From: Flavobacterium terrae
GTDB lineage: Bacteria > Bacteroidota > Bacteroidia > Flavobacteriales > Flavobacteriaceae
Assembly: GCF_900142035.1 (NCBI RefSeq)
Contig: NZ_FQZI01000002.1
Span: 310,001-374,000 of the forward strand
Direction of reading: 5' to 3'
DNA length: 64,000 nt
Positions 60,760-64,000 of this stretch are shown piece by piece. The notes beneath the pieces are model-generated. The model was not told the origin of the DNA. It did not search any database and saw only the letters and a program-made list of their open reading frames with translations. A program made the translations under genes and the position numbers. Numbering within the stretch: the stretch's first letter is position 1; each line of letters opens with the position of its first letter.

Positions 60760-60791
60760 ATAAACTTAGATATAAACGATCTATATTCTTT

Positions 60792-60829
60792 AAGCCTATG
60801 TGTAAACACACATAGGCTTTTTTGTTTTT
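60792..60829 (+). terminator. Strong terminator after the MFS gene
   Basis: Perfect 12-bp stem AAGCCTATGTGT (60792-60803) with ACACATAGGCTT (60808-60819), 4-base loop, followed by a T-rich run. It separates the core region from the protease cluster. Confidence 0.9.
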
Positions 60830-60843
60830 AACTATTTGTATCC

Positions 60844-60861
60844 ATCACTAAAATTAGTGAT
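60844..60861 (+). promoter_or_regulatory. Inverted repeat upstream of the caspase-like gene
   Basis: ATCACTAA (60844-60851) pairs with TTAGTGAT (60854-60861), two bases between the arms. It stands 167 bases before the caspase ATG, in the 268-base stretch after the MFS gene, where no gene was seen. A regulator site is possible. Confidence 0.4.
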
Positions 60862-61027
60862 TTAAAAAAGGAAATACCCCTTTCTAATTCCAACCTTTTC
60901 CTATTTAAAAATTGGTAAAAACCCTCTATCAAAATGGGCCATTTCTCTGACAACTATAATGTCAGATATAAGCAATTTTACATCAAGAAATTTCACAAAA
61001 ATTAATCAACAATTTAACAACAAATAT

Positions 61028-61897
61028 ATGGCTAAGAAAGCAGTAATTATAGGAATAAACGACTACGCTCCAATAGGCGCTGGAGGTCCCGACTTAAATG
61101 GTTGCATAGCAGATGCACGTGATATGGCTAATACATTAGTTATATGCGGATTTCAACCCACTAACATCAGAATTTTAACAAATCAAAATGCTACAAAAAA
61201 CAATATCATCACTTATATAAAATGGTTACTAACTGGAAATAAAGCTGGAGATTCATTAGTGCTTTATTACTCAGGCCATGGAACAAGAGTGGCTAATATA
61301 GGAACAGATCTTGAATTAGACGGTTTAGACGAAGCTGTATGTCCTCACGATTATGCAACAGCAGGAGTTATAAGAGACGATGAATTCAAAAATCTTTTTA
61401 AAGGAAAAGTACGAAAAGGAGTAAGTTTTGATGTTTTCTTTGACTGCTGTCACTCTGGATCAGGAACCAGAAAAATGAATCTTAGCGGCATTGATGGAAT
61501 GTTTGCAAATGAAACTCCAAGGTTTATCCCTCCTATGCTTGAAGATGAATTTTACTTCAATTTCTCGAAAAGCATCGAAACTAAATCATCCACAAAAGAA
61601 GCCTCATCTGAAGAAGCAACAACTACAACTAAATCATTAAACAAAGTCCCTGAAATGAATCATGTTCTTTGGGCTGGTTGTATGGACAATCAAGTATCAA
61701 TGGAAGGTGACTTTTCAGGCATGACAAGAGGATATTTCACTTACAACTTATGTAAAGTCCTTAGAGCGACAAGCGGTAACATTACTAGAGAACTTCTTGA
61801 CTCTCAAATAGCAAACGCTCTTTCAGCTATGGGTGCGGCACAAATTAATCAAACCGAAGGTAAATCAGCTAAGCTAAAACTAAAAATATTCGAATAG
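61028..61897 (+). CDS. Caspase-like cysteine protease (bacterial metacaspase/orthocaspase)
   Basis: 289 residues from ATG 61028 (MAKKAVIIGINDY); the frame extends to 60959 but the extra 23 residues precede the domain start. Peptidase C14 fold: DLNGCIADARDMANTL, catalytic His in LYYSGHGTR near residue 84, and Cys in FFDCCHSGSG near 141, followed by an acidic/Ser-Thr-rich linker (~178-203) and LWAGCMDNQVSMEG with a second subunit segment. No signal peptide. Such proteases cut after basic residues and act in stress or conflict systems. First gene of a four-gene cluster with a trypsin-like protease. Confidence 0.88.
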   Translation: MAKKAVIIGINDYAPIGAGGPDLNGCIADARDMANTLVICGFQPTNIRILTNQNATKNNIITYIKWLLTGNKAGDSLVLYYSGHGTRVANIGTDLELDGLDEAVCPHDYATAGVIRDDEFKNLFKGKVRKGVSFDVFFDCCHSGSGTRKMNLSGIDGMFANETPRFIPPMLEDEFYFNFSKSIETKSSTKEASSEEATTTTKSLNKVPEMNHVLWAGCMDNQVSMEGDFSGMTRGYFTYNLCKVLRATSGNITRELLDSQIANALSAMGAAQINQTEGKSAKLKLKIFE

Positions 61898-61906
61898 CGG
61901 TGGAAT

Positions 61907-61931
61907 CCGAAAAGCCATAAAAGAGTAGGAA
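61907..61931 (+). repeat. Intergenic element, copy 1, before the trypsin-like gene
   Basis: CCGAAAAGCCATAAAAGAGT continued by AGGAA, lying 20 bases before ATG 61951. A second copy, 23 identical bases out of 26 aligned, is at 63295-63320 before the last gene. It includes an AGGA that could serve as ribosome binding site, but the conserved part is much longer. Confidence 0.75.
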
Positions 61932-61950
61932 AAATTAAAAATCAAATAAA

Positions 61951-62913
61951 ATGACAACTAACAAAAAAGACAAACCCATGTTGCAAGATGAGGTTAAAAA
62001 TTTAAAACCTATCAAAGCAAAAAGAAAAATTGAGTTCGATGAAGATGGAAAACAGCGAATTGAAGCTATTGGTGTAAAATCATTAGAAAAAGGAGCTAGA
62101 GGTTTAATGGAACAAACACCATTTTGTCCTGACCACTTAGATCAAGATTTCAATCCAAAAGTGGATAAAGCGGGAGCTAAAACTCCAATTTTCATTGACA
62201 GAACTACATTTATGCAACCAGAAGGAAGCAGAACCATTTTTGGAGCAGATAACAGAACTGTATATAATTCAACAGCCTACCCTTGGGGATGTGTAGGTAG
62301 AGTTGAAACTGCTCTAGGAATAGGAAGTGGCGCCATGATTGGACCAAGACATATATTAACTTGTGCGCATGTTATCGATTTTAAAAGCGATGGATCAACA
62401 GGTTGGGTAAAATTTTCTCCTATGTACTACAATGGACCAAATCCAACTTTTGGTACTGCAAATGGTATCAAAACTTACTATAAGTATAAAGTTAAAGGAT
62501 CTGACGGTATAAACTCTACAGAAGCGCAGTACGATTATGTTGTAGTTGTGTTAGATAGAAATATTGGAAATCAAACAGGTTGGTTTGGTGCAAAAGCTTA
62601 CACAGATTCTTGGGATGGCTTAGCTTCATGGACTCATGCAGGATATCCAATGGATAAGACTGGTGCTCAAAGACCAACATATCAAAACAATATTGCTTTA
62701 GATGGAGATGCATTAACAACAGATGCTCATGAAGCAATTTATCACCAAGGTGACATATGGCCGGGACAAAGCGGTGGACCATTTTGGGGATATTGGTCGG
62801 GAACACCTTATGTAGTAGCTGTACAAAGCTGGCAAAACGCATCTAAAAATGGAGCCAGTGGCGGATCTGACTTACTAGACTTAGTAAATAAGGCTAGGAC
62901 TGAATATCCTTAA
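61951..62913 (+). CDS. Trypsin-like serine protease, cytoplasmic
   Basis: 320 residues without a signal peptide. Chymotrypsin-fold triad: His140 in ILTCAHVID, Asp195 in QYDYVVVVL and Ser274 in GQSGGPFWG; TGASGG-like SGGSDLL follows at the C-terminus. A ~105-residue N-terminal region (Lys/Glu-rich, then PFCPDHLDQDFNP) precedes the protease and may be an inhibitory pro-region. Resembles the glutamyl-endopeptidase/V8-like group. Location next to a caspase-like gene suggests a proteolytic cascade, with the caspase activating this zymogen or vice versa (inference). Confidence 0.88.
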   Translation: MTTNKKDKPMLQDEVKNLKPIKAKRKIEFDEDGKQRIEAIGVKSLEKGARGLMEQTPFCPDHLDQDFNPKVDKAGAKTPIFIDRTTFMQPEGSRTIFGADNRTVYNSTAYPWGCVGRVETALGIGSGAMIGPRHILTCAHVIDFKSDGSTGWVKFSPMYYNGPNPTFGTANGIKTYYKYKVKGSDGINSTEAQYDYVVVVLDRNIGNQTGWFGAKAYTDSWDGLASWTHAGYPMDKTGAQRPTYQNNIALDGDALTTDAHEAIYHQGDIWPGQSGGPFWGYWSGTPYVVAVQSWQNASKNGASGGSDLLDLVNKARTEYP

Positions 62914-62923
62914 TTAAATCAAA

Positions 62924-63277
62924 ATGGAAAATGATAAGACAATTGAAGAAATCTTCAAAGATGTCACAGATATTAATAGACTTCAGTATCTAAAAGAAAA
63001 ACTTGGTCAAGTTAAAAAAGATAAAAATGGAGCTTCAAACATTTACCCTTCTTCAAAATTCGCCAAATATTTAGAGCACAAGGATAACTATTTAAATCTA
63101 TCCAATAAACTAAATACTTTAAAGGAGAAAGTTGAAAATGGAGAGATAGATGCAATGACTGAGATGAACTTTTCTGGTGCATCTCATATCAAAAAAGTTG
63201 AAAATGCTCTTAAACTATGGTCAACAATTGGATATAAAAATGAAGTCGAGAAAATAATATCTGAAAGTTTAAAATAA
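62924..63277 (+). CDS. Small helical protein of unknown function in the protease cluster
   Basis: 117 residues, mostly helix, no signal peptide. Residues ~41-75 (YPSSKFAKYLEHKDNYLNLS...LNTLKEKVENG) show clear likeness to a stretch of the next gene product (FPSPQYVKYLEYEALYYEA...LTDLQKRV), with shared P-S, KYLE, Tyr and the L-K/Q-x-K/R-V ending. It may be a short paralogue, regulator or substrate of the larger protein. Starts 11 bases after the trypsin stop, so cotranscribed. No family recognised. Confidence 0.7.
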   Translation: MENDKTIEEIFKDVTDINRLQYLKEKLGQVKKDKNGASNIYPSSKFAKYLEHKDNYLNLSNKLNTLKEKVENGEIDAMTEMNFSGASHIKKVENALKLWSTIGYKNEVEKIISESLK

Positions 63278-63294
63278 ATAAAATAAGGCGTATA

Positions 63295-63320
63295 CCGAAA
63301 AGCCTTAAAAAGAGTAGGAA
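63295..63320 (+). repeat. Intergenic element, copy 2, before the last gene
   Basis: CCGAAAAGCCTTAAAAAGAG continued by TAGGAA, 22 bases before ATG 63342. Compared with copy 1 at 61907-61931 it has one substitution and one inserted A. Here AAGGC just upstream (63286-63290) can pair with GCCTT (63302-63306) to form a small hairpin, which copy 1 supports less well. Confidence 0.75.
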
Positions 63321-63341
63321 CAAACTAAAAAAAATAATATT

Positions 63342-64000
63342 ATGCCAAATTTCACACCAATGCCTGATGAAAAAGATTTTTTAAATTATCTATTAGGCGA
63401 TGTTTTTAAAAAAATGACTAACGGCGGAGACGCTAAAATGTTAGGCCCAAACAACTTTATTGCTTGGGAACCTGTACCTGTAGTCATGGACCCAGAAGCT
63501 TTTGATTATGCTTTAAAAGGTTTTTTTGGAGCTACTCCAAAATTAGAAAACATGTCAGACGAAGAATATGAAGATGCAAGAAGCTCAAAAAAATACAGCA
63601 AATTTGCTTATGCAGAAGAATTTGCTAGAATAGCAGATCAAATTCCAAGTATGATTCCAGAAATAGATCCAGCTTCTGGAGCTAGAAAGTTCACAATTTT
63701 TAGCCCGCATCCTGATCATACAAAATCAAACGTATATAGTGATGTATTGGATTACTGTGTGGTTAAAAATTCAAAAATTGACCCTAAAGTTGAAAAGAAA
63801 TTAGAAACTTTAAGAAAACAAATTGTTACTATTAAAAAGTTGGCAAACCCTGATTTTGATGAATCTGTTGTTGAACACCCAGAAGATAATCCAAAATTCA
63901 TCTATCAATCTTTTCCATCTCCACAGTATGTAAAGTATTTAGAATATGAAGCACTTTACTATGAAGCAGAAGACAAATTAACAGATCTTCAAAAAAGAGT
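63342..64000 (+). CDS. Large protein of unknown function, cut by the window edge
   Basis: The open frame from ATG 63342 (MPNFTPMPDEKDFLNYLLG) runs to base 64000 with about 219 codons and no stop. It is acidic and helix-rich, with no signal peptide and no catalytic motif that I recognise. Its visible C-terminal part (YQSFPSPQYVKYLEYEALYYEAEDK) resembles the small protein encoded just upstream, and both genes belong to the same unit as the caspase-like and trypsin-like proteases. Possibly the effector or substrate of those proteases. Identity open. Confidence 0.7.
   Translation, partial: MPNFTPMPDEKDFLNYLLGDVFKKMTNGGDAKMLGPNNFIAWEPVPVVMDPEAFDYALKGFFGATPKLENMSDEEYEDARSSKKYSKFAYAEEFARIADQIPSMIPEIDPASGARKFTIFSPHPDHTKSNVYSDVLDYCVVKNSKIDPKVEKKLETLRKQIVTIKKLANPDFDESVVEHPEDNPKFIYQSFPSPQYVKYLEYEALYYEAEDKLTDLQKR

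Follow-up and report, generated by a model that had tools for sequence, protein, structure and literature searches.

The window, a 64,000-nucleotide stretch of the Flavobacterium terrae genome, ends in a protease gene cluster on the plus strand, which is preceded by a terminator-like hairpin (60792..60819, plus strand; a 12-pair stem followed by a T run). The first gene of the cluster codes for a caspase-like protein (Peptidase_C14; 60959..61897, plus strand; Pfam PF00656, E 4.4e-31), and the starts of its homologues correspond to the ATG at 61029, which suggests that this position, rather than the listed 60959, is its true start. It is followed by a trypsin-like gene (61951..62913, plus strand), whose product falls just below the curated Pfam cut-off for Trypsin_2 and just above that for Trypsin, by a small gene (62924..63277, plus strand), and by a large gene (63342..64000, plus strand) that continues beyond the end of the window and forms a complete reading frame of 516 aa in the extended locus. 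At 33% identity (E 1.3e-14), the product of the small gene is related to residues ~151-263 of the large protein and thus looks like a duplicated segment of it. A Pfam search with an E limit of 0.01 assigns the large protein itself to no family, and the structure predicted for one of its homologues from a four-sequence alignment has a mean pLDDT of 34.3 and a pTM of 0.23. PADLOC and NCBIfam searches of the cluster recover little besides the caspase, the remainder being weak protease, peptidoglycan and other matches. Caspase- and trypsin-type effectors are treated in a paper on prokaryotic conflict systems (PMC7159879), a part of whose text says nothing about the DUF805b element described below. 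Additionally, a muramidase with a peptidoglycan-binding domain (PF11860, PF01471) is encoded downstream of the large gene (L003, 7495-8322). Neither of the -7 box forms TAnnTTTG and TAnnTTnG is found in 60760-61029, before the caspase gene, and no -7 box is found near the two elements in the window; the search thus gives no promoter for the cluster, and the co-transcription of its genes is inferred.

The first-pass annotation had pointed to two nearly identical stretches before the trypsin-like and large genes, at 61907-61931 (25 bases) and 63295-63320 (26 bases), and their near-identity is borne out, with one A/T substitution and one inserted A as the only differences. Between them and the ATGs at 61951 and 63342 lie 19 and 21 nt, the same distances as the 20 and 22 reported earlier as offsets. 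It also holds that there is no copy before the small gene, where the upstream gap is only 10 nt, or before the caspase gene, where a scan of 60760-64000 lists no match to the RNA family named below. The stretches of 25-26 bases are real, but the description of their surroundings as differing spacers has to be amended: the element starts about ten bases earlier, at 61897 and 63285, and these 5' ten bases differ between the copies because they hold the 5' arm of a hairpin, in which the bases pair. Both copies in fact belong, as two new members, to an orphan RNA family already known, the DUF805b RNA (Rfam RF02914, type Cis-reg), at 43.0 and 50.1 bits against a gathering score of 35.6; the E-values of 3.6e-10 and 1.4e-12, for 3,241 bases scanned, exclude chance. 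They span the full model (positions 1-35 of 35) with both the hairpin and the GAGUAGG tail, and lie upstream of coding sequence, as is characteristic of the family. Within the Rfam clan DUF805b is their best match, and they do not have the two hairpins that define the DUF805 RNA.

Copy 1 (61897..61931, plus strand) shares its first base with the last base of the caspase gene stop codon. The 5' arm of its hairpin, GGU (61899..61901), pairs with GCC at 61914-61916 in the Infernal alignment, this first helix being one that covaries in the family, and the fourth hairpin pair of the model is non-standard here, so that the hairpin is a weak one. Within the hairpin loop UCC (61906..61908) would form the 5' strand of a pseudoknot with GGA at 61928-61930, as indicated by covariation over 148 copies. 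In copy 2 (63285..63320, plus strand), the arm AAGGC (63285..63289) pairs with GCCUU at 63302-63306 in both the single-strand fold and the Infernal alignment, and CC (63295..63296) could pair with GG at 63317-63318, the outer pair of the pseudoknot being broken (A/A). Plain single-strand folding gives copy 1 another hairpin that is no better than shuffles (z 0.05), and gives copy 2 the expected hairpin, weakly (z -1.14). As a literal pattern with allowed gaps, the repeat occurs at exactly these two sites in the whole 3,161,259-base genome, and a reversed control pattern has 0 occurrences in the same 3.16 Mb. Across 60 genomes, F. terrae included, the pattern recurs in one other, G013, before a homologue of the large gene; the best plain fold of that copy differs from the family hairpin.

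Covariation between the hairpin loop and the tail

The family was compared in 153 copies taken from the best-scoring matches listed, of which 148 were distinct once five identical repeats had been dropped. A short hairpin, whose loop has ~12 nt, is followed by an A-rich linker with GAGUA at its end, and a 3-bp helix joins the loop to the tail. Because all 153 copies come from the high-scoring end, selection accounts in part for the near-invariance of the GAAAA and GAGUA segments. The loop triplet before GAAAA is mostly complementary to the tail triplet after GAGTA: the combinations among the 153 copies include GCC/GGC (61), TCC/GGA (38), CCC/GGG (11), ACC/GGT (8) and TCT/AGA (3), with ACC/GGA (5), ACC/GGG (3) and GCC/GGA (2) as the main misfits. 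In terms of mutual information, the column pairs tested are headed by a hairpin pair (1.38 bits), followed by the outer loop/tail pair (1.12 bits) and then by a third at 0.39 bits. This outer pair is Watson-Crick in 127 of the 148 distinct copies, as against a mean of 50.8 and a maximum of 70 in 10,000 shuffles. In the pseudoknot helix 97.1% of the cells are paired, and both sides have changed at its outer pair in 64/148 copies; its middle pair is near-invariant and hence little informative. Three of the five measures, namely the covariation score, the paired percentage and the count of cells with changes on both sides, are beyond all 500 shuffles; the two coarser ones are reached by some, the pairs changed on both sides by 44/500 and the further pair types by 123/500. 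Further, the structure is 92.6% paired when in register, the best slid control reaching 49.8%.

Since related sequences can mimic covariation, shuffling was also confined to copies within one genome. Here 51 of 58 copies from 14 genomes have a Watson-Crick outer pair, compared with a mean of 30.1 and a maximum of 43 in 10,000 shuffles, and a single genome (G426) carries five complementary loop/tail combinations, one of them with a G-U. The outer pair is missing in 11/148 copies (12 when L101, which has CAAAAA in place of GAAAA, is misregistered); eight of the 11 have a loop shorter by one base, and copy 2 of the window (ACC/GGA) is among the remaining three. A selection bias in favor of the second helix is unlikely, because the Infernal alignments of the model used for selection have no such helix. 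This strong covariation argues for the DUF805b RNA being an H-type pseudoknot of ~35 nt, with a 3-bp helix between a loop NCC and a tail GGN'.

Inspection of 30 RF03081-type sequences (a duplicate, L202, being dropped, and L215 giving no loop pair) suggests that the DUF805 RNA might be a tandem of two DUF805b-like units. Its second unit has an inner pair like that of DUF805b (CG 23, UA 4, UG 2, other 1; n=30), and the outer pair is mostly A/A (14/30), so that a third pair is not supported there. In the first unit a loop dinucleotide pairs with the two bases preceding the second stem, with a standard inner pair in 29/29 parsed sequences and a standard outer pair in 28/29, and with a few compensated changes; the single outer misfit comes from L023, which was parsed out of register, so that its inner pair is likewise worthless. 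As most cells are an invariant CG, the tandem remains suggestive only.

Distribution, placement and downstream genes

A search of the F. terrae genome with RF02914 returned 22 matches, seven at E 2.6e-4 or better and the other 15 at E 0.06 or worse; at the loose cut-off of E<=10 all 14 control genomes match too. Four of the seven score above the gathering score, one (34.0 bits) is just under it, and two match DUF805 (RF03081) better (L023, L024). These seven clan copies stand before unrelated genes: the large gene, the trypsin-like gene, and those for a class I lanthipeptide-like peptide, an SCO4226-like protein, a 112-aa protein that resembles two others in the set and has no NCBIfam match, a 214-aa protein with no Pfam match, and a 94-aa protein. 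A Flavo-1 RNA (RF01705, 67.7 bits) lies in the same genome behind the gene following another DUF805b-like copy (L022, 2285-2374, minus strand). More broadly, at E<=1e-5 RF02914 is found in 112/150 genomes of the genus and in 96/395 genomes of the phylum, representing 47/170 genera, with up to 15 sites per genome and 0/14 control genomes. RF03081 is found in 59/395 phylum genomes and passes the cut-off in 1/14 controls, Bacteroides ihuae.

Among the named homologues of the large gene, four are from Flavobacterium records, and the fifth lies on a truncated contig of a metagenome bin of the Sphingomonadales and cannot show the region upstream of the gene. All seven full-length homologues examined carry the element before the large gene (the window, G217, G013, F. 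terrigena, F. cucumis, F. sp. J27 and F. supellecticarium). In the F. cucumis copy, GCT/AGC replaces the usual TCC/GGA, two pairs having changed together. A split homologue in G171 also carries the element, and a motif search sees none at the weak matches in G124 and G115. In G160 one copy precedes a 468-aa gene with distant similarity to the large protein (L185, 10893, minus strand), and a second, with an imperfect knot, precedes an 81-aa frame two genes on (L185, 7945, minus strand). The trypsin gene has the element in the window, G217, G426 and G489, and none was seen before it by motif search in J27, F. cucumis and G171. The caspase gene has it in G426 and G489, and the same search saw none before it in the window, G217, J27, F. 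cucumis and G171. The placement in the window is thus one of several arrangements, with the module coming and going at individual genes. In three relatives a putative sensor kinase and response regulator were recognized by eye beside the caspase/trypsin or large-gene cluster (L183, 5910-7321; L184, 9954-11365; L188, 9725-11183).

The position of the element relative to the start codon is nearly constant. For 142 of the 153 copies, the distance from the end of the element to an ATG with a frame of 40 codons or more is 13-30 nt, with a mode of 20; the other 11 fall outside this placement, three of them having no such frame within 200 nt. In two copies from relatives within the order (L075, L156), which have no 40-codon ATG frame nearby, a similar short open stretch of ~14 codons follows the element by eye; it is possibly a leader peptide or small gene, that of L075 having no ATG start. 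In base composition the spacer has 51% A, 33% T, 13% C and 3.4% G, and A is commonest at -3 (80%) and at -11 to -13 (75-82%; 82% at -12 and 75% at -13). In a study of F. johnsoniae (PMC6847099), A at -3, -6, -12 and -13 is reported to favor initiation and structure to be lowered in the -20 to +20 region. Three of these four positions (-3, -12 and -13) are A-rich in the spacer, and -6 is weak, at only 52%. With a modal spacing of 20 and an initiation region that begins at -20, the element stops about where that region starts.

The 142 downstream proteins, some of which are cut by locus ends, were compared with family models at E<=0.001, and not at curated cut-offs. NCBIfam identifies 12 bacteriocin-like proteins (leader_Chryseo), three class I lanthipeptides and three CCPGW putative bacteriocins; Pfam identifies six DUF6520, five DUF805, four PixA, four DUF6345, three DUF2589, three TRL, three TM2, three Trypsin_2, two phage Collar, one caspase and one muramidase (probably that of L145, by eye), among others. 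Such a mixture of families points to a common signal rather than a shared pathway. It also rules out an element specific to the protease cluster, and the special link to that cluster proposed in the first-pass annotation is accordingly not supported. The same annotation had named, as the finding that would undo its reading, a common ribosome-binding leader scattered before many unrelated genes; the scatter is indeed what we find, but the element, ending ~20 nt upstream, is not a leader of the Shine-Dalgarno type.

Possible function

The element lies in leaders and between genes, possesses two covarying helices and keeps a near-constant distance to the AUG. These features, together with its identity as DUF805b, support the earlier suggestion of a shared leader or RNA-binding site. 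We favor, with a probability of roughly 0.6, a cis-acting leader operator that is read by a trans-acting factor and affects the translation (or the stability) of the mRNA for the next gene. Both copies would then be parts of an mRNA, with the element at the upstream edge of the ribosome landing zone in an organism without Shine-Dalgarno signals, and would work in cis, after transcription. The conserved GAAAA and GAGUA segments could be what the trans-acting factor recognizes. In the cluster, the trypsin-like and large genes might thereby be tuned apart from the caspase and small genes on one transcript. No RNA-binding protein stands out among the best 25 of the 28 and 29 downstream families, and hence the trans-acting factor is a guess. 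The broken outer pair of copy 2, the weak hairpin of copy 1 and the modest share of A at -6 also tell against this reading.

A riboswitch, in which a small molecule (perhaps a signalling nucleotide) would be bound by the knot itself and no protein would be needed, is an unlikely but sensible alternative. The size and knot layout recall small H-type riboswitches of the preQ1-I type, up to 15 matches occur in one genome, the downstream genes are very different, and DUF805 looks, suggestively, like a tandem of two such units. Against this, the downstream genes are not a metabolic set and no expression platform is evident, as the helix ends ~20 nt before the AUG and leaves the start region uncovered. 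The near-fixed distance to the AUG and the A-rich, initiation-friendly spacer are also what might be expected of a constitutive translation enhancer or 5' mRNA stabilizer, a knot that would serve without any regulation, by docking onto the rim of the 30S subunit or by keeping nucleases away. This we consider improbable, given that 38/150 genomes of the genus have no match at E<=1e-5, that orthologous genes gain or lose the element, and that its named targets are unlike housekeeping genes.

Two conserved boxes ~20 nt before genes could further resemble the -35 and -10 boxes of a promoter with a short leader, read by an alternative sigma factor, or the binding site of a regulator. However, the loop and tail covary by Watson-Crick pairs, and the two boxes are not at a set distance, which differs by several bases among copies. 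Moreover, the -7 box TAnnTTTG is itself enriched upstream of non-operon copies, which puts the element inside the transcript: in shuffles preserving base composition only, as in the position test, it occurs within 60 nt upstream of 13/95 copies without a co-directional frame ending just upstream (shuffle mean 4.8, reached by 0/500), and it is not enriched upstream of operon-like copies (3/54; shuffle mean 1.7, reached by 117/500). The covariation and these upstream boxes largely refute the promoter reading, and a DNA signal of any kind has very little probability left. The gene-cassette joint proposed in the first-pass annotation, or a recent duplication inside the cluster, is hardly credible, for although the copies flank genes of one cluster and neighboring genes each have a copy elsewhere (L117, L182, L135), copies are scattered through the genome, are nearly fixed relative to start codons and differ by pair-preserving changes.

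Returning to the post-transcriptional operator, a more far-reaching and tentative proposal, to which we would give distinctly less than even odds, is that DUF805b and DUF805 are the single and tandem H-type pseudoknots of one phylum-wide operator in Bacteroidota devoid of Shine-Dalgarno sequences. Through this movable module at about -20, one trans-acting signal at the mRNA exit side of the ribosome could control bacteriocin-like peptides, inclusion-body proteins, small membrane proteins and caspase/trypsin-type proteases. Should the knot indeed work at about -20, it would illustrate a means of translational regulation in organisms that do not use Shine-Dalgarno pairing, and the element provides a route to genes that share one signal with the protease cluster.

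Comparison with known systems

The attC sites of gene cassettes have GTTRRRY core sites, and by eye no GTT is present on either strand of either window copy. The preQ1-I riboswitch is ~35 nt long, with a hairpin loop that pairs with an A-rich tail, and the DUF805b RNA is like it in all these respects; however, the DUF805b tail does not overlap the ribosome-binding region, and the preQ1 family is absent from the four Rfam matches (E up to 5) in the scan of 60760-64000. A Shine-Dalgarno sequence is a purine run 5-9 nt before the start codon, and the purine-rich GAGUAGGA upstream of the start codon bears a likeness to it. A leader of this type was rejected, since the element ends ~20 nt from the ATG (mode 20), which is too far, with a spacer of 3.4% G. 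Further, the host phylum naturally lacks Shine-Dalgarno sequences, according to the F. johnsoniae study (PMC6847099).

The DUF805 RNA (RF03081) belongs to the same clan as DUF805b, which its second hairpin and tail resemble. It differs in an extra upstream hairpin, whose loop seemingly pairs with the following GG (again suggestively), and which the window copies lack. With the DUF805b RNA (RF02914), reportedly described by Weinberg in 2017, the window copies have in common the hairpin and the GAAAA and GAGUAGG segments. Our literature search, beyond whose scope most of the subscription literature lay, yielded no paper on the function of the DUF805b or DUF805 RNA, and the family is thus named but without a function in the literature searched. 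The Infernal consensus of DUF805b has one helix, to which the loop-to-tail helix found here is added as a second, although it may already be drawn in the Rfam seed or the founding paper. Beyond the known family, therefore, the present analysis contributes the pseudoknot, the spacing to the start codon and the list of targets, which together make tests by reporter mutation possible.
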